From a virus, in IMG/VR virus record IMGVR_UViG_3300046009_003952, positions 1-38,896 of that record: 38,896 bases of DNA; one strand, 5' to 3'. This document shows positions 4,992 to 38,896 of this stretch, one piece after another. The translations under genes and the position numbers were made by a program. Below the pieces are notes generated by a model. It searched no databases, was not told the origin of the DNA, and was given only the letters and a program-made list of their open reading frames with translations. Position 1 is the first letter of the stretch. Each line of letters begins with the position of its first letter.

Positions 4992-7832
4992 CTACTCCCT
5001 GAGCGCATTTTGGTTTGTGACGACCGGCGCGAGCACATTGACTGCCGCACCCGGCCCCGGACGGCTTGCTGGCTTCTGCAGCATTTCACCAAATTCAGAC
5101 CGCTTGCCCTTAACCATCGCTTCAGCCAGCGCCTTCGCAGCCGGATCCGAGTTGAGCATCTCCTGAGCGATGTCGACCGCCAGCTTGGCGTCGACGCGGC
5201 CCTGAGCGCGGGTGAGCAGGAAGTTGGCAAACGTAAAGAGCTGGTCGAACACTTGCAGCTTGGGGCCGGCCTGTTCGGCTGTGAGCTCACGCACACCGCC
5301 GCCAGCCGCCACGCCTTCGCGCACCAGCGTCTTGAAGCGGCGCTTGTCGAGCAAGGCTTGGCGAATGTCGTTGATGACGGTTGCCACATCTTCAGACGAC
5401 TGCGCCAACGTATCCAGCTTCTCAGCCGACTTCTCAGGCGCCACGCCAACTCGGTTGGCAAGCGTACGCGCCCGGCGCTCCAGCTCCTTTAGCTCACGCA
5501 AGCGCGGCTCAAACTCGGCGGCCACACGGGTCGTTGCTGTCTCGCCTGCCTCGGCCAACCGCGCAGCGTTTTCGTCAAACTGACGCAAGTCGTCGAGGAT
5601 CTTGATGCCCGACTCTTCAAGCGTATTGAGCGCATCGTCATTTACGCGAAGGAAATCGGCAGATTTCGACGGATTGATAACGCCGTCGCGCACCACTTGG
5701 CGGCGGTAGCGATCGACGATACCGCGACGCACCGCGTCCACGGCCAGAGGGTCTTCACCCAGCGCCGCAACAAACCGCAGTGCGTTTTGTTCGCCCTCAA
5801 GAATGGTCTTGACGACCGACTCAGGCGCGAGCTTCTGCTCGTTGGTGACGGTCTGCCGTTCCAGATCCGACACCCAGCCGGTGCGGAAGCGGCCAATCAC
5901 TTGCTCACGGTGAGCGGTACGCGCGTCTTTGTAGAGCTTCGCCGCTTCGGTGCCTTGCGTGCCTGCTTCAATAGCTTGCTCGGCGGCGCGTTTAAGCTGC
6001 ATCAGATTGGCGACAGTCTTGTTGGCTGACGCGTCGTTGGCGCGGCCCAGCGCCGCTAGGTCTTCGTTGATCGCTTGAACAAACGCATCGGCGTCTTCCA
6101 GCGTAATCATTGTCGGCTCGCGACGTATAGGCGGCTCGCCCATCAACGTCGCGTATGGCTGTTTAACTACCTTGGATTGATATGCGGCAACTGCTTTAGC
6201 CGTGAGCGGGGCCTGTTCTGGGTTAAACACATACCCGGCGTCGTCCATCAGCGCGCGAGCGGTCTGAGCTACCAAGTCGAAGCTAAACGGCTCGGGTGCA
6301 GCGTCAAACGCCGCGCGGTAGGCGGGTTGGACGATCTCTGTCTTAACGCGATCAAGCTCATCGGCGCTGCGCTCTGTTACGGTTTCGCCGATCTTGAGCT
6401 GGCTCTCTTTCGGCAACCGGCCAGCCAAGCGCTCGCGTTCCTCTCGCACAGCGCGCTGCGCCAGCTCATCCTGCTCTGACAGAGCCACCAGCCGATTCTT
6501 CTGCTGCTGGTCGAGATCCGCCTGCAAAGCGTTGACGCTACGCGAGGCAGTCGCCAGCCGGTTTGCTTGGTTTTGCTGCAAAGCTGCATCGCGAGCGAGG
6601 TAGAGATCTTTGACGATCGTATTCGCGTTGCGGGCGCTGCCGAGCAGCGCGGCAAAGCCCGAGGCGTTGAGCGCAGTCGCGACCTTCTCAGGCGGCGTGC
6701 CAAGCTCCAACAGGTTGATGGCCTGCTGCACCTTGTTCGGGTCGTTGTCGAACGCTTCGAGGTAGGCGCGAGCTTTGACCTTCTCGGCGCCGCCCGGCAG
6801 GAACGGCTCGGTGATGTTGTAGACGGTGCGTATGGCCGGCTTAGCTGCAGCGCTGATAGCTGACGGCGCAATACCGCCCGCAGCGGCGAGCAACAACTGC
6901 TGGAATGGATCGGTGACGCCGGCCTCTTGGCCTGCACCGACCGCCGTACCCGCGCCGATAGCAGAAGCAGTCTGCACGCCTGGCTTTTCGGCTAACGTCG
7001 TTAAGACGTTACGGGTAACGCCCGGCTCTACCAGCGCGTTTCGCGCTTGTTCGCCTCGAATCACGTTGCCGGTTACGTCATCAACAAGACCACGCGCCGC
7101 GCCAATCGTCCCGCGAGTAGGAGCTACGAACGCGCCCATAGTACGGAAAGCCCGACGAGCGCTCGAAGTCGCTTCAGGCGCAACAATGTCCGGGCCGTAC
7201 ATCGCGTTGATGGCCTCAGAAGGCGTCATCATGGGCTGTCGACCAAAGGCTTGCAGCACCGGATTAACAATACCGCCAGCCACCAAGTCCGACGCTAACA
7301 AGCCGCCTGTAGCCACGGCGGCGCCCGCCGGGCCGCCCAAAGCAAAGCCAGCGCCCGCAGCCGTTGCATACGGCGCTACGTTCGGATTGATCACTTCGCG
7401 CGCGATCGTCGCCATGTCTTCGCCAAAGGTGGTTGGCTGGCGAGGTGCGGGTAGACCTTCGTCGAGGTACTTAGCAAAACGGTTAGTAGCCGCAGGAGCG
7501 GCCGCCGGCGCCGTTTCCTCCGGCGGGTTAACGTACTTAGCAAACCGATTAGTTGTGGCTTTTGGCTGCTCTGCTGCAGCAGGGCCGGGCAGGGCCGTGC
7601 CTAGAGGGCGGCCACCTTCGCCAGTGACAGTCACGTCAAACTTCTCGGCCGCCGGCGCTTCGGCTTGCCGAATGATTTTAAACAACTGCTCGCGAGACTT
7701 AGCAGGCAGCACGTCAAAACCTTCCGCGCCGCGCTCAAGCGGCAACGGAGAAAGGCCGTAAGCGCGGAACAAGTCTTTAGCTTTAGCGACTTCGTTCGGC
7801 GCCAAGTTTGCGAAGCTGTACGGATCGGCCAT
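4992..7832 (-). CDS. Large internal virion / DNA ejection protein
   Basis: A 946-aa structural protein. Regions in order: soluble N-terminus; two copies of TNRFAKY (about residues 91 and 115) in a Pro/Ala-rich linker; a glycine/alanine-rich hydrophobic stretch around 155-190 that could insert into membrane; a second Gly/Ala-rich patch near 290-330; then about 550 residues of charged, helical coiled-coil-like sequence. Size, membrane-like segments and position, last of three ejection-type genes and just before lysis, match P22 gp16, which enters the cell with the DNA. Sequence similarity to gp16 itself is not evident. Start ATG 7832 has a GGCGG upstream. Confidence 0.65.
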   Translation of the reverse strand: MADPYSFANLAPNEVAKAKDLFRAYGLSPLPLERGAEGFDVLPAKSREQLFKIIRQAEAPAAEKFDVTVTGEGGRPLGTALPGPAAAEQPKATTNRFAKYVNPPEETAPAAAPAATNRFAKYLDEGLPAPRQPTTFGEDMATIAREVINPNVAPYATAAGAGFALGGPAGAAVATGGLLASDLVAGGIVNPVLQAFGRQPMMTPSEAINAMYGPDIVAPEATSSARRAFRTMGAFVAPTRGTIGAARGLVDDVTGNVIRGEQARNALVEPGVTRNVLTTLAEKPGVQTASAIGAGTAVGAGQEAGVTDPFQQLLLAAAGGIAPSAISAAAKPAIRTVYNITEPFLPGGAEKVKARAYLEAFDNDPNKVQQAINLLELGTPPEKVATALNASGFAALLGSARNANTIVKDLYLARDAALQQNQANRLATASRSVNALQADLDQQQKNRLVALSEQDELAQRAVREERERLAGRLPKESQLKIGETVTERSADELDRVKTEIVQPAYRAAFDAAPEPFSFDLVAQTARALMDDAGYVFNPEQAPLTAKAVAAYQSKVVKQPYATLMGEPPIRREPTMITLEDADAFVQAINEDLAALGRANDASANKTVANLMQLKRAAEQAIEAGTQGTEAAKLYKDARTAHREQVIGRFRTGWVSDLERQTVTNEQKLAPESVVKTILEGEQNALRFVAALGEDPLAVDAVRRGIVDRYRRQVVRDGVINPSKSADFLRVNDDALNTLEESGIKILDDLRQFDENAARLAEAGETATTRVAAEFEPRLRELKELERRARTLANRVGVAPEKSAEKLDTLAQSSEDVATVINDIRQALLDKRRFKTLVREGVAAGGGVRELTAEQAGPKLQVFDQLFTFANFLLTRAQGRVDAKLAVDIAQEMLNSDPAAKALAEAMVKGKRSEFGEMLQKPASRPGPGAAVNVLAPVVTNQNALRE

Positions 7833-27425: not shown

Positions 27426-28949
27426 TTATGCTCCCATCCAACTGCCCGAGATACTGCCCTGATATTGGGTAACACGTCGAGCCTTCTCTCTATATTCGCG
27501 CTGCCCGAGCGGAAATGCAAATGTCACCGCGAGCGCGTCGGCCGCGTCAGGGCTTGCAAGCCCTCGCGACTTCATCTCTTTCTTACCTTCTAAGAATATC
27601 GTACCTGATGAGTTCGGCTTCTGCGTCGGCCCGCACAGGTCGGTCATGAGCTGCCGATCGTTCGGTATGCACCCCTCGCGCAGCCAGTCGCGCATCGTGC
27701 CCCAAAGCTCCGCACGCTTGTTGCCCCACATCACCGGGTTCTTCGCCTTCCAGCCAAAGTTAACCCCGCGCACCTTATAGCGCTGCTCCTTGAGCCGATC
27801 GAGGATGCCGTACCCGAGCCCGCCCTCGTCGATGACGGTAAACACCGGGTTGAACTCCTCGATCGCATCAATGACGCGCCCCACCGTCGTCATGGTGTCG
27901 TCGCCCTTGTACCGCTTGATCGCGATGATGTCGCGCCCTTGCCGCGCCACGATCACGGTGCTGTCGGCGCCCGAGCGCGCCGGATCCACCCCAAGCACGA
28001 TCGGCGCCGTCTCATCCTTCCACCTTGGCCGGTGCGCCGCCGCGTCCACTACCGACGGGCCAATGAACTGATCGTCACCTTCAAGCGGAAACTGACCGTA
28101 CACCTCAACGCGCGCCTGGGGACTGTCCGGCCCATACTCGTCGATGATCTGCTGGTACACCGCCTTGTCGGTGTCCTCCACCTCACGCGCGTCGATGCTC
28201 TCGGTCTGCCAAAACGCCCGTTTGGCGTTGAAGCACTCGAAGAAGTACCCCTCGTTGCGACGCGGGTTACTGAACGCGCACCAAAAGCGGTTCGGTGTGT
28301 TTTCCGTAAAAAAGCCCGCCGACACCGCCCAGATGGGGTCAGGTATACCGCTCGCTTCGTCGAAGATGACCATGACGCCATCATGGTTGTGCACGCCCGC
28401 GTACGCGTCGGGGTTCTCCTCCGACCACAGCCGGCCCTCAACTGACCAGTAGCGCGTGCCCTTCTTAAGGTCACGCTCGACCAGCTCCGCGATCCACTTG
28501 GCCGGCATCACCCGCGTGGCGGACACCTCGAACCAATGGCTGTTGATCATCAGCGCCAGCCACTTAGTGATCTCGGCCCACGTCACCGAGCGTAGCTGCG
28601 CCTCGCTGTTGGCCGACACAATAGTTGTGCTGCCTATGCGCGTCGATAGCATCCACAAGATCAGCCAGCTCACCAGCGCCGACTTGCCGATACCGCGCCC
28701 AGAGGCCGTCGCCGCCCGCAGCACCTCGAACGCCTCGCGCTGTTTGTTAGCGCGGATATGGGTAGCAAATTTGCGCAGCATTTTTAGCTGCCATGTGCGC
28801 GGGCCAATAAAGTGCTCAAGCGGGGTGCCCTTCTGCCCCCACGGAAACACGAACCGCACGAACGCCTCGGGGTCGTCCTTGATCGTGGGCGACCAGAGTT
28901 TGCTCATTAAGAGCTGTTCATCTTCGGCGTTATAGATCGGCAGTTGCAT
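27426..28949 (-). CDS. Terminase large subunit
   Basis: A 507-aa DNA-packaging motor. ATPase: Walker A SGRGIGKS at residues 83-90, Walker B VMVIFDEAS at 192-200 (D197, E198), and a coupling motif region AFSNPRRNEG at about 225. Nuclease (RNase H fold): D322 in LGVDPARSG, D374 in VIDEGGLGYGI, and a third acidic cluster in SPDAADALAVTF near 470. This is the Terminase_6 pattern. It pairs with the small subunit with which it overlaps by 20 bases, and it cuts genome-length DNA and loads it through the portal. Confidence 0.95.
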   Translation of the reverse strand: MQLPIYNAEDEQLLMSKLWSPTIKDDPEAFVRFVFPWGQKGTPLEHFIGPRTWQLKMLRKFATHIRANKQREAFEVLRAATASGRGIGKSALVSWLILWMLSTRIGSTTIVSANSEAQLRSVTWAEITKWLALMINSHWFEVSATRVMPAKWIAELVERDLKKGTRYWSVEGRLWSEENPDAYAGVHNHDGVMVIFDEASGIPDPIWAVSAGFFTENTPNRFWCAFSNPRRNEGYFFECFNAKRAFWQTESIDAREVEDTDKAVYQQIIDEYGPDSPQARVEVYGQFPLEGDDQFIGPSVVDAAAHRPRWKDETAPIVLGVDPARSGADSTVIVARQGRDIIAIKRYKGDDTMTTVGRVIDAIEEFNPVFTVIDEGGLGYGILDRLKEQRYKVRGVNFGWKAKNPVMWGNKRAELWGTMRDWLREGCIPNDRQLMTDLCGPTQKPNSSGTIFLEGKKEMKSRGLASPDAADALAVTFAFPLGQREYREKARRVTQYQGSISGSWMGA

Positions 28950-29379
28950 GTTCGCCTTCGATCGTCAGTGGGGCGCGTACGTTTTCAGATAGTCGGCCAG
29001 CAATGACGCGAGATTCCGCTTCCTGCAGCGCCGCTGTGATACTGATTTGTTGCTTGATGTCGACTTGCACCTGTTGCTTCGCCACCCAGCCATGCACATG
29101 CGTAAGGATGGCAAGGGAGGCTTTGGTGTCTCCGGCTTTAGCCGCAAGGTGTAGCTGCGTGGATGCCTCAGCCTCGCCATCGGCGCGACCTTTCTGTTCG
29201 GCCATTTGGGCTATGGGATCTAACTGACATAAGCGCCGGTACTCCGTTGGCAACAACCCGGCGGCCAGCGCCAGCGTGTCACCCTTAAGGCCAATCTTCG
29301 CGGCGTCGTATATCGCCTGCAACACTTTTTCGGTCGCCCTGATTTCGCGGGGCGCGAAGGGTAAGGACTGGAAGCTCAT
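28930..29379 (-). CDS. Terminase small subunit (putative)
   Basis: A 149-aa protein. The N-terminus (PREIRATEKVLQAIYDAAKIGLKGDTLALAAGLLPTEYRRLCQLDPIAQ) reads as a helix-turn-helix DNA-binding domain. The middle is a helical oligomerisation segment (EASTQLHLAAKAGDTKASLAILTHVHGWVAKQQVQVDIKQQISI) and the C-terminus is flexible. It precedes the large subunit with an overlap, in the expected place for a pac- or cos-recognising small terminase. Sequence similarity within this family is generally low. No strong ribosome site precedes ATG 29379; the site of recognition may be the repeat region just upstream. Confidence 0.78.
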   Translation of the reverse strand: MSFQSLPFAPREIRATEKVLQAIYDAAKIGLKGDTLALAAGLLPTEYRRLCQLDPIAQMAEQKGRADGEAEASTQLHLAAKAGDTKASLAILTHVHGWVAKQQVQVDIKQQISITAALQEAESRVIAGRLSENVRAPLTIEGEHATADL

Positions 29380-29495
29380 ACAGTGAGCATAGCGCGGTTC
29401 GCTAAAAAATAAAAAATTTTTTGCGACACCTCATAGCATTTTTTTGGCCGGTCGGTCGGCCCTCCCCCCCCATCGTTTTTTGCGCGGCGCCAGCC

Positions 29496-29535
29496 AGCCC
29501 GCCAGCCCGCCAGCCCGCCAGCCCGCCAGCCCGCC
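29496..29535. repeat. 8-bp tandem repeat AGCCCGCC x5, G-quadruplex-prone
   Basis: Five exact tandem copies of AGCCCGCC, with partial copies on both flanks (cagcc before, agcca after). On the minus strand, GGG triplets recur every eight bases with five-base loops, satisfying the G3-N1-7 quadruplex rule. The unit is not a multiple of three and no gene uses it. Confidence 0.85.
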
Positions 29536-29573
29536 AGCCATCGAGCACGCGAGCCGGTGCGCGCGCAGCGCGT

Positions 29574-29946
29574 CGAGCTTTGGGTCATTTGGGTCATGGT
29601 GCGCGAGCCGGTGCGCGCGCCAGCGCGAGCGTGCGGCCATCGAGCTTTGGGTCATTTGGGTCACGCGTTGGCCGATGACCTAAATGACCCAAGCGCCGGG
29701 GAGCTAGGCAGGCTTTGGGTCATTTGGGTCAATTTGTCACGCGAAAAAAGTCGGAGCGCCGAAACATTGGCGCGCCGATGTGGCGAGAGCTGTATGCCTA
29801 TACAGTAAAAATACAGCTTTACAAATTGATATAAAAACATGACCTAAATGACCCAAAAACCTCTCGCGCCCTATGTTTTAAGGCTCGCGCGCATGGGTCA
29901 TCGAGCTCGATCCCATGACCCAAACGCGACCCAAATGACCCAAACA
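29574..29946. repeat. Iteron-like TTTGGGTCA repeat array, both orientations
   Basis: The 9-bp element TTTGGGTCA occurs as head-to-tail pairs. Forward pairs end at 29596, 29663 and 29731. Reverse pairs (tgacctaaatgacccaa, one base changed) are at 29676-29692 and 29840-29856, and a longer reverse array is at 29916-29946. A single half-site is at 29892-29900. Two forward copies are preceded by the same cgagc. The element is not seen in pairs elsewhere in the window. Confidence 0.88.
29790..29805. promoter_or_regulatory. LexA-like dyad CTGT-N8-ACAG
   Basis: The 16-bp sequence ctgtatgcctatacag is a perfect dyad of two 6-base arms around gcct and exactly fits the CTGT-N8-ACAG LexA box of beta/gamma-proteobacteria. 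A third half-site (atacagct, 29811-29818) forms a second inverted repeat with agctgtat (29789-29796). A weak leftward promoter, -35 TTGTAA (29824-29819), 16 bases, -10 TATAGG (29802-29797), would overlap the box. Confidence 0.6.
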
Positions 29947-30595: not shown

Positions 30596-30735
30596 CCCGC
30601 CTGCTCGATGTGATCGTCATGACGTGTGTCGGCGTACTGTGCGCCGCCATCGTGCTCGAAGACTATAACCTCGCGATCGGCGCCGGCCTGTTGGCCGGCG
30701 TCGCTGCTCTGCTCGACGACATTATCCGCAAGTAA
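30592..30735 (+). CDS. Small two-helix membrane protein
   Basis: A 47-aa protein starting MTRLLDVIVMTCVGVLCAAI. Two hydrophobic helices (about 3-22 and 27-41) separated by EDYN give a hairpin membrane topology, with a charged DDIIRK tail. Start ATG 30592 overlaps the stop of the preceding gene (ATGA). Function unknown; it could be an early inhibitor or membrane anchor. Confidence 0.65.
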   Translation: MTRLLDVIVMTCVGVLCAAIVLEDYNLAIGAGLLAGVAALLDDIIRK

Positions 30736-30751
30736 CCTAGGAGCCACTACC

Positions 30752-31480
30752 GTGCAATACACTCTTACCGTATCTCTCTCGACCCTGCGCGCTGCGCGCA
30801 CCCATTCGGCCGATGGCGACATTCGCCGCTATCTCTGCGGCGTCTATCTCGATACCCAGCGCGGCAAAGTCGTCGCCACCGACGGCCACCGCATGCTGGT
30901 CGCGCATGCGCGCGGCGTCATGTGCAAGGCGGGCGCCGCCGTCATCGTCCCGAACGACTTACTCGACGCCGCGCTAAAACAATTCGGCGGCGAGTACGCG
31001 CGCGGCAAGTCGCTGGGCGCATGCGATGTGTCGATCACGATCGACGGCGCGCAGAATTCTCTCTCGATCGCGACGCCGACGGGTCACGTCACCGGGCGCC
31101 CGCTCGACGGCCAATTCCCCGACTGGCGCAGGGTCGTCCCGAAAGGCGACGAAGACGGTTTACTCACTGGCGCGCCGGCCGTGCTCAATTCGGACTACGT
31201 GACTGAGGCCTGCGCGGCGCTCGCGATCGCGCGCAACATCTCGAAGGCGAAGGCGGGCCACCATGCGGTGCGCGTGCTGCAGCGCGGCGAATTCCCCTCG
31301 ATCGTGTGCGACACCGATCCCGATATGGTCGTCATCATCATGCCGCTGCGCGATCGCATGGTGGCTGAGGCGCCGATCGCCGCGTGCCGCATGGCGCATG
31401 ATGACGCTATCCCGTACAGCGACGACACCGCCGAGCGCGTCGCGCTCGAAGCTGCGGCCGCCGTATCGAGCGCCGCCTAA
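30752..31480 (+). CDS. DnaN-like sliding clamp lacking domain 1
   Basis: A 242-aa protein homologous to the bacterial DNA polymerase III beta clamp, which encircles DNA and tethers polymerases. Key blocks align with E. coli DnaN domain 2: RRYLCGVYLDTQRGKVVATDGHRM (about 25-48), VIVPNDLLDAALKQF (64-78) and GQFPDWRRVVP (120-130). The C-terminal block VVIIMPLR (193-200) corresponds to the MPMRL terminus. Full clamps have 366 aa and three domains; here the first domain is absent, the third is about 45 residues shorter and an additional Ala-rich tail of 42 residues follows. Start is GTG 30752, with AGGAG eight bases upstream. It probably supports the family-A polymerase or captures host clamp-binding proteins. 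Confidence 0.88.
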   Translation: MQYTLTVSLSTLRAARTHSADGDIRRYLCGVYLDTQRGKVVATDGHRMLVAHARGVMCKAGAAVIVPNDLLDAALKQFGGEYARGKSLGACDVSITIDGAQNSLSIATPTGHVTGRPLDGQFPDWRRVVPKGDEDGLLTGAPAVLNSDYVTEACAALAIARNISKAKAGHHAVRVLQRGEFPSIVCDTDPDMVVIIMPLRDRMVAEAPIAACRMAHDDAIPYSDDTAERVALEAAAAVSSAA

Positions 31481-33790: not shown

Positions 33791-36073
33791 CGGCGGCGCC
33801 GTGGGCTCCACCGCTCGCCTGAGCTCCGACTTGCTGCGCGTGACCATATCGGGCGCGCAGAATAAGTGCTTTTTCGAGGGATAGTCGCCGCTCGCGACGC
33901 GCCCCAAGTCTTGCCAGCCCGCCTCCCGTAGCGCGTGCAGCAGCGCCGACTGTGGCACCTTGACGCCTGCAGGCATGGCGCCGGCGACGCGATCGCACAC
34001 GGCGTGGAACGGCGAGCCGATCACACCGCGCGCGAACTCGCCCGCGCGGGCGCGCATCATCTCGACAAGGTACGACTCGGCCGTGCTCATGCCCGCGTCG
34101 ATCATGATGGCCTTGGCCTCTGTCATCATCGGGACGGCGCCGGGGTTGAACTTGGAAACGTCGTATGAGGAAAGCCAACAGGCAATTTGCTCGAAGCCTC
34201 CGGCCTTATACCAAGCCCAGAGACGCGCCGCGTCGCGCTCAGGCAGACGCTCGGCCTCGCTCCAGACGACCATCCAGCGACGATCGTCAGAAGGCAAGCT
34301 GATAGCGGCGCGCTCGTTGGAGAACGCAAGGACGAAAATGCGGTTTAAGGCATCGTACGGGTGTAGACCCTTACGGTTGACGGGCAGAAGCTCAGGCGGA
34401 GCCGCGATAATAGGCTTGAGCTGATTTTCCAACGCGCGGCGATCCTTGGCCTCAGCTTGGCGCAGCTCGTTAATGACCATGATTTCCGCTTCGAGCGCGT
34501 AGCCCCATTGGCTCGACAACTCTTCGTTGCGCACCATCGACACGTTTACGTTAAGAGGCCCGCCAACAGCCCATAAGAACGGCGCCCAGAGAGTATCTTT
34601 GCCAGAACCAGGACGACCGGCGTGTAAAACGGCGTGATTTATTTTTACATCGGGGTGCTGGACTTTGTACGCCATCACGTTTAAGACGTGAGCGCGCTCG
34701 GCGGCGTCAGGGATCATGTGCTCTAAGTGCTCAAGCCACGGCGACACGTCGCCGCCGCCGCTCACGACGGGCCGCGCGTTGCGCCAGCGGTTGCCATATA
34801 CGAGCCCAGCACGCGAGACGAGTATGTCCTCGCCGGCGGCGTAGGTGACGCCGATCAGTGAGTGCGCGCCCTTCTCTTGGCGGTGCTCATCGAAGCAGAT
34901 GGACGCCTCGATGGCTCGGCCGGTGCGTATGGATTTAGAGGAAACGTGACGGAAAAGTGCGTTGAACGTCCCGCGCGAAATTTCGCGGCGCTCGACCATA
35001 TCAAAGTACGCGTCGTCGTCCTGCAGATAGGCGAAACGCTCGTACCATTCATTCTTAGTCAGTCGCCCAAGCTCACGCCGGCGCACCTCTTCGATGACCT
35101 GTTGCGCAGCGTCAGGGTACGAGTCGGTCGGCGTGATCTTCGAGAGCGCGGACTCCATCGTCTTTGCAAGCAGCTCATCGCGCAGGCCGTAGCCCGTCGC
35201 CGGGCCGCCCTCGGCCTCGACCCAACGGAGGAACCGCTCGCTGTTCCAGTCGCCGCAGTGCTCGTGGAAGCAATCGAACGCGCGGTGCACCGGGTGATAA
35301 CGCCCTTCTGGGTTGTTGTCGGAGTGCTCGGCGTGGTTCGGGCACACGACGCCCGCCCAGCCTGTGCTGTTCGGTGGGTTGATGACGAGGCCTTGCTCGG
35401 AGAGCCAAGCGAGCACGGCGTCGTTGCCGTCGTCCTCAATGTGCATCGGCTGGTAAGAGGCGGTGTCAGCGGCGGCAGGCGTAACGCCGAGCTCACGACA
35501 GATTTGATCGAGAGTGAAAAACCGAATAGGAGAAAACTCAACAAGGCGCGCAGGGAAGTTATCGCGCCCAGGCTTTAAGTTGATCGAGCCGGGGATGCGA
35601 AAATTACGAACGGCGTTGATCGCGCCCTTGTCGGTGTAGCCGGCTTCGGCGATCGCAAAAATCGCGGCGGCGAAATCCTCTTTCGTCGGCTGGTGGTCGT
35701 AGTCGAACGTGTAGCCCCACTGGTAGTTACCGGGACTCGTTTCGATCTTCCATGACGGCTCCAGAGGCGGAATCTTGGACTTGGTACCCACGTCATCGAG
35801 CACCATGAACGCGACGTGTTTCGAGAACGCGGCGCCTGCTGAGAGCTTGCCGTCCTTGAACCGATCAAGCACGAAGAGCGCGGTGTTGCCGTACCAAGCG
35901 GCAGGCTTGTCCTCGCGATAACGCTCGGGCAGACACGGCGGCCAAGTGTATTTAGGCGTGCCGTCGCCGTGCAGCGCCGGCTGGCCGTCGTAGATACGCG
36001 GCTTTTGACGCACAAGTAGAATTGTCTCGCCTTCTGGGGCGGCCTGTGCTAAATAGTCGACGAAGGTCATCAT
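33770..36073 (-). CDS. Primase-polymerase / SF3 replicative helicase (DUF5906-like)
   Basis: A 767-aa replication initiator. The N-terminal third looks like an archaeo-eukaryotic/RepB-type primase: LDD at 92-94 (catalytic acid pair) and RNFRIPGSINLKPG at 156-169. A zinc-type module follows (C244-x2-H247 with C268, H270, H272, C273; VCPNH and AFDCFHEHCGDW). The C-terminal third is an SF3-type AAA+ helicase: Walker A GRPGSGKDT at 486-494, IMVINEL at 531-537 as the B motif, and VLAFSNERAAISLPSDDRRW near 581-600 (sensor and arginine region). It would unwind DNA and prime synthesis for the polymerase just upstream. Start is ATG 36073 with AGGAG eight bases before. Confidence 0.85.
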   Translation of the reverse strand: MMTFVDYLAQAAPEGETILLVRQKPRIYDGQPALHGDGTPKYTWPPCLPERYREDKPAAWYGNTALFVLDRFKDGKLSAGAAFSKHVAFMVLDDVGTKSKIPPLEPSWKIETSPGNYQWGYTFDYDHQPTKEDFAAAIFAIAEAGYTDKGAINAVRNFRIPGSINLKPGRDNFPARLVEFSPIRFFTLDQICRELGVTPAAADTASYQPMHIEDDGNDAVLAWLSEQGLVINPPNSTGWAGVVCPNHAEHSDNNPEGRYHPVHRAFDCFHEHCGDWNSERFLRWVEAEGGPATGYGLRDELLAKTMESALSKITPTDSYPDAAQQVIEEVRRRELGRLTKNEWYERFAYLQDDDAYFDMVERREISRGTFNALFRHVSSKSIRTGRAIEASICFDEHRQEKGAHSLIGVTYAAGEDILVSRAGLVYGNRWRNARPVVSGGGDVSPWLEHLEHMIPDAAERAHVLNVMAYKVQHPDVKINHAVLHAGRPGSGKDTLWAPFLWAVGGPLNVNVSMVRNEELSSQWGYALEAEIMVINELRQAEAKDRRALENQLKPIIAAPPELLPVNRKGLHPYDALNRIFVLAFSNERAAISLPSDDRRWMVVWSEAERLPERDAARLWAWYKAGGFEQIACWLSSYDVSKFNPGAVPMMTEAKAIMIDAGMSTAESYLVEMMRARAGEFARGVIGSPFHAVCDRVAGAMPAGVKVPQSALLHALREAGWQDLGRVASGDYPSKKHLFCAPDMVTRSKSELRRAVEPTAPPSLAVVK

Positions 36074-36123: not shown

Positions 36124-38077
36124 ATTTCCCGTACCGCTTCATGACCTTCACATCGGCCTTGAGCGGGAACCCCTCAGCCCACGCGGGCGCCGTGCACATG
36201 ACCGATCGCAACGTGGCGACGGTCGCATCGGCGGCGTCCTCGGGGCACTCCAAAACAATTTCGTCGTGAACATGCAGGACAGTCGACAGCCCTCGACGAT
36301 CCAGCTCGCGCAAGCTCTCGCGCAGTAGATCGTTGGCGGTCGCCTGAGTGATGTTCTCGCACGCAAGGCCACGCCAAAGTCGAGCGCGAGGCCATTCGGT
36401 CGCGTCGGCTGCGGGTTTCCATGCGGCTTTCAAGTACGATACGCCATCCTCTTCGAGGCGTGCAAACGGATAATTGAGCACACGTCCGCTTGGCAACATG
36501 TACCAAAGATGCAACTTGTCGTACAAATACGTCACGCGTCCGGCGCTGAACTCGTGGCCGGGATTACGCATGGCGCGCATGTACGCGTTCTCTAGCAACT
36601 GCCAGTAGCGCAGCGCCCATGGATTCGCACGGCGCCAGGCGTTGACGATGCGCTGCGCGTCGGACTCGCTCATCAAGATGCCGTAGCCGCGACCCATCGC
36701 CGCGAACGCACCGATGCCGCCGGCGAAGCCAAGCGAGAGGATGGCGACCTTGCCGATCTGGCGCTGCTCGTCGGTGATAGCGTCGGGCGTGGTGTTGTAG
36801 ATGCCGGCGGCCTCACGCTTGTATATGTCGCCGCCTGCGCGGAACACATCGAGCACGGTGTCGGCCTGCAGGTCGGCGGACAGCCACGGCGTCGCGCGGG
36901 CTTCTATCGCTGACCAGTCGGCCACGACGAAAACGTGACCTCGGGTGGGGATGAGAGCGGGTCGCAACATTCCTTTAAGTACATCTGTAACCCGTCGCCC
37001 ATATTCTGGAACGATACTGTGACCTCTGACCATTGAATGTCGGACGGCATCAGCGTTTCCAAGAGTGCGACGCGTGAAGTTGTGAACTTGGGCGCCATAG
37101 CTTGAAGCGCGCCCCGTGGCACTTCCACCAGCAAATACAAATGCTCCTCTGACACGGTGATCCTCAACATCGGCTAAGTTGGCGAGCCTGTTGAACTTAG
37201 CGACAGACGAGGCCCACAGATCGTCAGCGCATTGGATAACGTCCGCCACGTCCGGCGGCACTTGCTCAGGGTCGGTGACGGCGAGCAAGTTAGCGCGCAC
37301 CGCCTTGTCGATCGACGTTTTCTTCTCGCCGTCTTTGTAGACGGTCATCAGCTTGCGGGCTTCTGCCCCTAAACGCTCGGCGACCCATTCGCGCATACGC
37401 GGCGAGCGCACTGACGTGAGCGCGCCTTCGGTAATCTCGACGACGAGCTTCTCAATGTCGGTGAGCTCTTGCTCAGCGTAGGTGACGGCGGCCTTGCAGA
37501 GCGGCACGTCCACGAGCACGCCACGGTCATTGATCCGCTCGTTGACGTGGTAGTCGGCGAGCTCCGCATCGGACAGGTCACGCATGGCCTGACTCGCTGC
37601 ACGCATGGCGCGCACGTCCTGCTCGCAGTAGGCGATCATCTCGGCCATCAGGTCGGGGTCGCTGCGGAAGGTGCCGTCGGGCTTTGGAATCGAGAGCTGG
37701 CGAATGAGCGCCGCGCCTCGATGGTCTTTACGCATACCGGCGCCAAGCGCACGGCCTATGTCTTCAAGGCTGCCGGGCAGGCAGTTGGCACGCGCCTGCG
37801 CGGCGGTGCAGTAGAACTGGGTCAGGTCGTAGTTGAGCTGCAGGACGTACCAAAAGATAAGCCGCTCGAAGGCGGCGTTGTGCGCGCGGATCTGGCCTTT
37901 GAAGTTGGCGACGCGCTCAGGGAACGGGTGCACCGGGAGCCACGTCTGCACGGGCTCGTTGTCGAACGCGTAGGACATGCACAGCACCTCGGTGCTGGCA
38001 TCCTGCGCGTAGTTGTAGACGCCGCCGACCTTCAAGTCGTAGCGGCTGCGCGTCTCGAAGTCGACCCAAAGAGTCAC
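36122..38077 (-). CDS. DNA polymerase, family A (PolA-type) with 3'-5' exonuclease
   Basis: A 651-aa replicative polymerase. The N-terminal DnaQ-like proofreading domain has DFE (residues 6-8), HNAAFE (about 66-71) and YCEQD (150-154). Polymerase: TGRASS at about 321-326, motif A DWSAIEAR (387-394, usually DYSQIELR), motif B R-x3-K (RQIGKVAILSLGFAGG, about 439-454) with Phe-Ala-Gly in place of the usual Tyr-Gly, and motif C HDE (604-606). Frame is open to a GTG at 38092, but GTG 38077 gives a GTGA overlap with the preceding stop, and GGAAAG lies nine bases upstream, so I prefer it. It follows the upstream small genes in a coupled operon. Confidence 0.93.
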   Translation of the reverse strand: MTLWVDFETRSRYDLKVGGVYNYAQDASTEVLCMSYAFDNEPVQTWLPVHPFPERVANFKGQIRAHNAAFERLIFWYVLQLNYDLTQFYCTAAQARANCLPGSLEDIGRALGAGMRKDHRGAALIRQLSIPKPDGTFRSDPDLMAEMIAYCEQDVRAMRAASQAMRDLSDAELADYHVNERINDRGVLVDVPLCKAAVTYAEQELTDIEKLVVEITEGALTSVRSPRMREWVAERLGAEARKLMTVYKDGEKKTSIDKAVRANLLAVTDPEQVPPDVADVIQCADDLWASSVAKFNRLANLADVEDHRVRGAFVFAGGSATGRASSYGAQVHNFTRRTLGNADAVRHSMVRGHSIVPEYGRRVTDVLKGMLRPALIPTRGHVFVVADWSAIEARATPWLSADLQADTVLDVFRAGGDIYKREAAGIYNTTPDAITDEQRQIGKVAILSLGFAGGIGAFAAMGRGYGILMSESDAQRIVNAWRRANPWALRYWQLLENAYMRAMRNPGHEFSAGRVTYLYDKLHLWYMLPSGRVLNYPFARLEEDGVSYLKAAWKPAADATEWPRARLWRGLACENITQATANDLLRESLRELDRRGLSTVLHVHDEIVLECPEDAADATVATLRSVMCTAPAWAEGFPLKADVKVMKRYGK

Positions 38078-38283
38078 TGCTGTTCTTTCCACAGGATGTA
38101 GTCGTACTGTTTAATGCCGCGAAACACGGCGGTCGCCATGTGGTGCTGCTTGATACCCCAAGCTTCCACTAAATCTTTGTACCGCACGCGCTCGTTGTTA
38201 ATGCGTGCCCAGCGCTTGCGCTCCATCAGCACGCGGTACTGCTCCAGCGTCAGGACTAGGTTTTTCCATGACGGTTTGGTCAT
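38074..38283 (-). CDS. Small protein upstream of polymerase, HTH-like
   Basis: A 69-aa basic protein (TKPSWKNLVLTLEQYRVLMERKRWARINNERVRYKDLVEAWGIKQHHMATAVFRGIKQYDYILWKEQQ). VRYKDLVEAWGIKQHHMATAVFRGIKQYDY reads as a helix-turn-helix with a basic recognition region. Its start ATG overlaps the preceding stop (ATGA) and its stop overlaps the polymerase start. Role could be regulation or a polymerase accessory; unproved. Confidence 0.68.
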   Translation of the reverse strand: MTKPSWKNLVLTLEQYRVLMERKRWARINNERVRYKDLVEAWGIKQHHMATAVFRGIKQYDYILWKEQQ

Positions 38284-38515: not shown

Positions 38516-38896
38516 TTAGCCGGCCCTGCGCCGACGACCCGTGGGGGCAGCGGCTTCTGTTACCGCAGGAGCTTCTGCCTCTACAGACTCAGGAGCGTCA
38601 CCTTCCATGCCGATCCAGCGCACGACTTCAAAGACGGGCGTGAAGATGCGGCCATAGGACTTGTGCTGGTAATGCTCCTTGCCCAGACGCACGATAGCGA
38701 CCGGCTTCGCTTGGTCTTTATCGACCTGCTCAGCGATCGCCACCGCCAACGTCTGCACTCCGCGCTTACCGCCCACGCTCGTCGTGGTGTAGCGCACTTC
38801 GAGGCCGGTGTCCTCGCCGCTGATGCACTTCAGCGACAGACCGACTTGCTTCTCCCAGCCCTTGCGAGCTTGCGGCGGCGCCGCCGGCGGTTCCTT
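38516..38896 (-). CDS. Conserved phage protein of the replication block, C-terminal part
   Basis: This is the continuation, across the contig ends, of the gene that starts at 402. Here the last 83 unique codons and a second copy of 43 codons (38768-38896) are visible. The sequence EVRYTTTSVGGKRGVQTLAVAIAE, AKPVAIVRLGKEHYQHKSYGRIFTPVFEVVRWIGM is a compact conserved module, then an acidic Glu/Ala tail and a basic end (TGRRRRAG). The last three window bases differ from the corresponding ones at 127-129, so the outermost codon is uncertain. The module is a conserved phage family with no assigned function that I can name. Confidence 0.8.
   Translation of the reverse strand, partial: KEPPAAPPQARKGWEKQVGLSLKCISGEDTGLEVRYTTTSVGGKRGVQTLAVAIAEQVDKDQAKPVAIVRLGKEHYQHKSYGRIFTPVFEVVRWIGMEGDAPESVEAEAPAVTEAAAPTGRRRRAG
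38768..38893. repeat. Terminal direct repeat (contig closure), right copy
   Basis: Identical to bases 1-126. Coding is continuous through it, which supports a circular map of about 38.77 kb. Confidence 0.9.

Follow-up and report, generated by a model that had tools for sequence, protein, structure and literature searches.

Repeat Array and Its Surroundings

The window analyzed here is the whole 38,896-bp record. Its first and last 129 bp (1–129 and 38768–38896) overlap (126 matches), and the joint between them is spanned by an open frame, ORF 38516–38797 being part of the gene cut there, so that the map appears circular. To the right of the small-terminase (TerS) gene, a sequence search of the window identified six 18-bp pairs of the 9-bp word TTTGGGTCA, three on each strand, at 29579–29944 (Table 1). 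This agrees with the original prediction of head-to-tail 9-bp pairs at six places, three forward and three reverse, but the triples it also described are weak, consisting of a degenerate half-site at D and an offset one at F.

Half-sites with at most one mismatch number 21 in the window vs. 5.4 expected, a count reached in none of the shuffles (0/100); the eight that fall outside the array are single, dispersed, and approximately as numerous as expected by chance. No 18-bp pairs with up to two mismatches were found elsewhere in the record, and reversed-pattern controls yielded 0 matches. The pairs are confined to the array, which contradicts the dispersal through coding genes that would have spoken against a distinct element. 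Comparison of the array with phages and plasmids (blastn) gave chance matches only, and a literature search for the word TTTGGGTCA gave no match. Besides the pairs, tandem 8-bp GCCCGCCA repeats occupy positions 29489–29540, between the TerS gene and the array.

The sites form two groups, A–D and E–F, flanking an AT-rich stretch of 40 bp. In 97 loci, the 40 bp preceding site E have a mean GC content of 0.20 (sd 0.04), vs. 0.49–0.57 in neighboring stretches. Just upstream, partly overlapping this stretch, lies a perfect LexA-type box. The consensus CTGT-N8-ACAG is present in the D–E spacers of 51 of the 97 relatives, in at least two word classes, and in other clades the palindrome is replaced by GGGTATACCC-like sequences (30/97) or by TACAGTAACTGTA (3/97). 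A consensus scan found no sigma-70-like promoter in the array region. Among the early genes, the one at 30626–31480 is sliding-clamp-like (Pfam DNA_pol3_beta_2 just under the cut-off), its best match in PHROGs being RusA-like.

Table 1. Features of the array, its neighbor gene, and the proposed initiator gene
Feature	Position	Strand	Comment
Small-terminase-like gene	28930..29379	-	Conserved neighbor directly left of the array; not the likely binder
Site A, TTTGGGTCA pair, outer left	29579..29596	+	Exact match
Site B, pair	29646..29663	+	Exact; opposite site C at 28–30 bp in relatives
Site C, pair	29676..29693	-	2 mismatches; position kept in relatives
Site D, pair and third half-site	29714..29740	+	Pair 29714–29731 (exact); degenerate half-site ATTTGTCAC 29732–29740
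LexA-type palindrome CTGTATGCCTATACAG, array center	29790..29805	.	Perfect box, identified from sequence
Proposed melting region, AT-rich 40 bp before site E	29800..29839	.	20% GC
Site E, pair	29840..29857	-	1 mismatch; 105–139 bp past D in relatives
Site F, pair and extra half-site	29916..29944	-	Pair 29927–29944 (1 mismatch); offset half-site 29916–29924
Proposed initiator, primase-helicase (DUF5906), 767 aa	33770..36073	-	Model resembles NrS-1 and SaPI primase-helicases
Predicted winged-helix region, residues 641–760	33794..34153	-	Covaries with the repeat word
Wing-tip residues 727–729 (A-S-G)	33887..33895	-	729 predicts base 2, 727 predicts base 6 of the half-site

Conservation of the Array in Related Phages

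A geometry-guided search with a threshold score of at least 70 (25 shuffled controls scored at most 63) retrieved arrays from 134 of 251 loci, and a second set of 109 loci yielded 51 more. Arrays of the six-site geometry occur in at least 185 relatives at the equivalent position, directly upstream of the small-terminase gene, contrary to the absence of conservation that the original prediction had named as evidence against itself. The exact 18-mer is present in at least 119 IMG/VR stretches, about 100 of which represent a single family, whose members have PolA and a DUF5906 primase-helicase along with P22-like structural genes. The array-bearing family comprises widespread environmental podoviruses (freshwater phages), complete and P22-like, and the phage records searched contain almost no close relatives of it. 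The GTDB host search yielded MAG contigs only, several of them labeled betaproteobacterial, which is too unreliable for naming a host; betaproteobacterial hosts are possible. Relatives of the primase-helicase (L374, L380) occur in freshwater MAG contigs, two of which belong to a Rhodoferax MAG.

The order of sites, A+ B+ C- D+ / E- F-, is conserved. Distances are about 28–30 bp for B–C, 38–41 or 51–53 bp for C–D, and mostly 87–89 bp for E–F, and those for D–E fall into the classes of 105–107, 115–119, 126–128, and 137–139 bp. A third half-like sequence follows site D in most relatives, and the number and spacing of the outer-left sites (A position) differ among them. The spacings are either kept or shifted in steps of about 10 bp, yielding classes approximately one helical turn apart, which are descriptive, since the uniform null ignores relatedness. 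Binding to one DNA face had been suggested earlier on the basis of the fixed 9-bp spacing of the half-sites; the helical-step behavior is seen instead in the spacing between the pairs. The suggestion of a two-sided switch, with forward copies toward one operon and reverse copies toward the other, is unsupported, as the order + + - + / - - is conserved, and strand does not divide cleanly by side because the reverse pair at 29676 sits within the forward group.

Replacement of the Word Under a Fixed Layout

Relatives with other 9-mers were retrieved by large terminase (TerL). In these relatives, the word is swapped at all sites together and the geometry is retained. The words found include TTTGGGTCA, TATGGGTCA, AATGGGTCA, TGTGGGCAA, TGTGGGTCA, TGTGGACAA, TGTGTGCCA, TGTGTATAA, TGTAAGCAA, and TATTGGCAA. 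For example, in L137 with the word TGTGGGCAA the sites are arranged as + 68 + 29 - 39 + 127 - 89 -, vs. + 67 + 30 - 38 + 126 - 87 - in the window. Judging from these sequences, the DNA word and the corresponding part of a protein have most likely changed together, repeatedly, in related phages, while the layout was retained.

Correlation of the Word With Protein Regions

Among the five proteins scanned, the strongest same-word excess was observed for residues 661–760 of the primase-helicase (up to 0.83 for the same word vs. 0.60 for other words), two further segments of this protein showing a marginal same-word difference of 0.10. For TerS, TerL, PolA, and portal, the clade of the window is nearer to the TGTGGGCAA clade than to the distant TTTGGGTCA clade, and no region of these four proteins clearly reverses that relation. 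In 19 dereplicated loci, the distance between words correlates with the distance between residues 641–760 (r = 0.64), and in the partial Mantel test the correlation for the C-terminus given the rest of the primase-helicase is r = 0.645 (permutation p = 2e-4). No segments of the primase-helicase outside residues 641–760 have a partial r above 0.18, and the TerS distance given the helicase C-terminus adds nothing (partial r = -0.08). The trees of the two parts of the protein disagree: that of residues 1–650 rejects the TTTGGGTCA clade (p-AU = 9e-5), and that of residues 651–767 recovers it, with weak support and the alternative not rejected (p-AU = 0.18). The repeat word tracks the C-terminal predicted winged-helix domain, the sole tested protein region to do so.

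Of the binders proposed originally, i.e., an initiator, a repressor, or the small terminase, the covariation points to an initiator, with the primase-helicase as the binder. The small terminase is disfavored both by covariation, given the partial r above, and by distribution, as same-word arrays adjoin TerS genes of only 57–63% identity, whereas phages with TerS of 66–74% identity carry no array. The latter phages (L153–L165), whose TerL is 77–78% identical to that of the window, have a different, shorter helicase (~451 aa) and no detected PolA; this is a replaced replication module, and the accompanying loss of the array favors the origin model described below. The protein encoded at 38074–38283, also suggested as a binder, is rejected, since L009 retains the array in its absence.

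Predicted Protein–DNA Contacts

The primase-helicase matches the Pfam profile DUF5906 above the cut-off and RepB_primase below it, and its full-length model matches the C-terminal region of the NrS-1 polymerase, the helicases of SaPI5 (7ola) and PriRep (7pds), and D5. The C-terminal domain modeled by AlphaFold2 (pLDDT ~90) has the order helix-strand-helix-helix-hairpin, with the hairpin at residues 721–739 and its turn at 729–730, and from this order of elements the domain is predicted to be a winged helix; the C-terminal model alone had no significant match in PDB (best E = 0.13).

Among all 767 residues of the helicase and those of TerS, base 2 of the half-site is predicted best by helicase residue 729 (0.93), and no TerS residue accounts for more than 0.41 of a base. 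The rule pairing Arg729 with G at base 2 was derived from the first set of loci, where 29 Arg and 45 non-Arg loci were concordant and one discordant, the sole misfit being L349, whose word is implausible. In the held-out loci, 31 Arg and 15 non-Arg were concordant and 0 discordant (46/46), the register list for aligning the words having been compiled after some of the held-out words were already seen. On the tree of residues 1–640, residue 729 switched independently about six times, and base 2 always moved likewise (sign test, p = 0.031). Base 6 is best predicted by residue 727 (Lys with A, 24/28), and bases 7 and 8, by residues 723/737. Counter-evidence to the Arg729–G2 rule comes from L174, where a helicase with Arg729 is paired with a AATGGGTCA array that scored just under the threshold. 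This locus and L207 share 98.5% identity over 5.8 kb including the helicase gene, and as only the array region (5784–6286) differs, the mismatch reflects recombination, a chimeric assembly, or a true exception to the rule.

A one-to-one code between the wing and the iterons, with residue 729 reading base 2 and residue 727 reading base 6, is a tentative extension of these correlations, and we hold it to be somewhat less probable than its negation. Under such a code, all the sites and the wing would switch as a unit while the helical architecture stays fixed, a phage would not fire the origin of a co-infecting relative, and the host LexA box inside many origins would tie firing to DNA damage.

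Replication-Origin Model and Its Alternatives

The array, its geometry, its AT-rich center, and the covariation of the word with the C-terminal domain and the wing residues were established computationally. In our interpretation, the array is very probably the replication origin of the phage, bound by its own primase-helicase through the C-terminal winged-helix domain. The protein would bind the TTTGGGTCA pairs through this domain, and in each half-site bases 2 and 6 would be read by the wing tip (residues 727–729). Its copies would assemble on the left (A–D) and right (E–F) groups of sites in a fixed helical arrangement and melt the AT-rich 40 bp between D and E, after which they may load as helicase rings, and the primase domain together with PolA would then begin synthesis at the array. 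GC skew at fourfold sites jumps at the array in the window in a sawtooth manner, from -0.10 on the left to +0.17 to +0.22 on the right, and its sign agrees in seven out of seven array-bearing genomes and in none of two genomes without the array; as the signal in relatives is noisy and gene content is a confounder, with the same genes on each side, it provides weak support.

The position between divergent operons, the central LexA-type palindrome in 51 of 97 loci, and helically phased paired sites that suit looping are also what one would expect of an operator array, at which the primase-helicase as an autoregulator, or another repressor, controls the divergent early and late promoters, replication starting elsewhere. 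We regard this as unlikely, given that no conserved regulator gene was found in the early region of array-bearing phages, the covarying protein is a helicase with the domain order of origin-binding Reps, the array contains a melting-like AT-rich stretch, and the consensus scan revealed no sigma-70-like promoter. An additional regulatory role of the array is possible. Iterons frequently function in replication control in addition to initiation, and the array might therefore be a copy-control or incompatibility locus, where the initiator limits replication that truly starts at another place, as with ori and crr of P4; as the window has the pairs at this locus only and the AT-rich stretch lies within the array itself, we assign this a very low probability.

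Pac and cos sites are often located near terminase genes, and the array is always directly upstream of the TerS gene, a location compatible with a pac or cosB-like packaging site to which the neighboring small terminase binds. It is, nevertheless, the helicase rather than TerS that predicts the word, both by distances once the helicase C-terminus is taken into account and by single residues (at most 0.41 vs. 0.93), the array is missing beside TerS proteins of 66–74% identity, and near-complete contigs have no fixed ends at the array. Hence, a packaging function appears the least probable of the readings considered. The position of the array varies among near-complete contigs, which speaks against a fixed genome end there, though not against headful pac; contig ends seemed overrepresented near the array, but this was a product of locus cutting and was dropped.

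Comparison With Known Systems

The proposed origin has several features of the SaPI/PICI replicons. In SaPI Rep and SCCmec Cch2, the C-terminal domain binds the origin repeats (PMC7581432), and in PICI origins an AT-rich region lies between two iteron sets (PMC6092414). Likewise, Pfam and model matches indicate a D5-like (DUF5906) primase-helicase as the initiator here, two sets of sites (A–D and E–F) surround 40 bp with 20% GC, the initiator C-terminus appears to set the iteron specificity, as judged by covariation, the origin is located 3' of the initiator gene, and the specificities are lineage-specific. Unlike in SaPI/PICI, the origin is ~3.8 kb from the initiator gene, past the opposing early operon, and not immediately downstream; the iterons come as tandem pairs of 9 bp whose order on the two strands is fixed and whose spacing changes in ~10-bp steps, and many lineages have the LexA-type box. 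The genome is that of a whole podovirus with its own P22-like coat, portal, terminase, and lysozyme, not an integrating satellite, and none of the proteins searched was an integrase. The array-bearing phage is not a PICI, since its genome is that of a whole phage and its origin lies apart from the initiator gene. Its anatomy is best read as a replicon of the SaPI/PICI type, which would work like one.

If this is true, complete phages, too, use an origin layout that has been described as exclusive to PICI satellites, and the origin and the initiator are assigned for a widespread family of environmental podoviruses. Co-change of initiators and origins is usually studied with two or three alleles. 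Here, about ten or more natural specificities reside on one scaffold and single residues predict single bases, which makes both the reading of the origin by the helicase and the initiator–origin co-change testable.

The alpha protein of phage P4 has primase, helicase, and origin-binding activities, and we propose the same combination in a single protein here. P4, however, has two separated loci (ori, crr), compared to the single pair-motif locus in this genome, and its iteron sequences probably differ from those of the window. The fusion of helicase and primase in P4 alpha has been described (PMC7145576). Covariation of the initiator DNA-binding domain with the iterons is shared with the RepA_N origins of PLE, where specificity has been swapped repeatedly and the remainder of the protein kept (cf. 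the ICP1 nuclease Odn) (PMC8263062). The PLE initiator differs in that it belongs to an unrelated family, has no helicase or primase, carries the DNA-binding domain at the N-terminus, and is known in few variants.

Podoviridae sp. ctNMl277 (MW202483) shares the gene order, has a primase-helicase that is 53% identical, and also carries a repeat array upstream of TerS (L384:28215–28593), but this array consists of palindromic GTTTAYGTAAAC repeats, some of them in 14-bp steps, with no 9-bp pair array. The C-terminus of the ctNMl277 helicase is very divergent.
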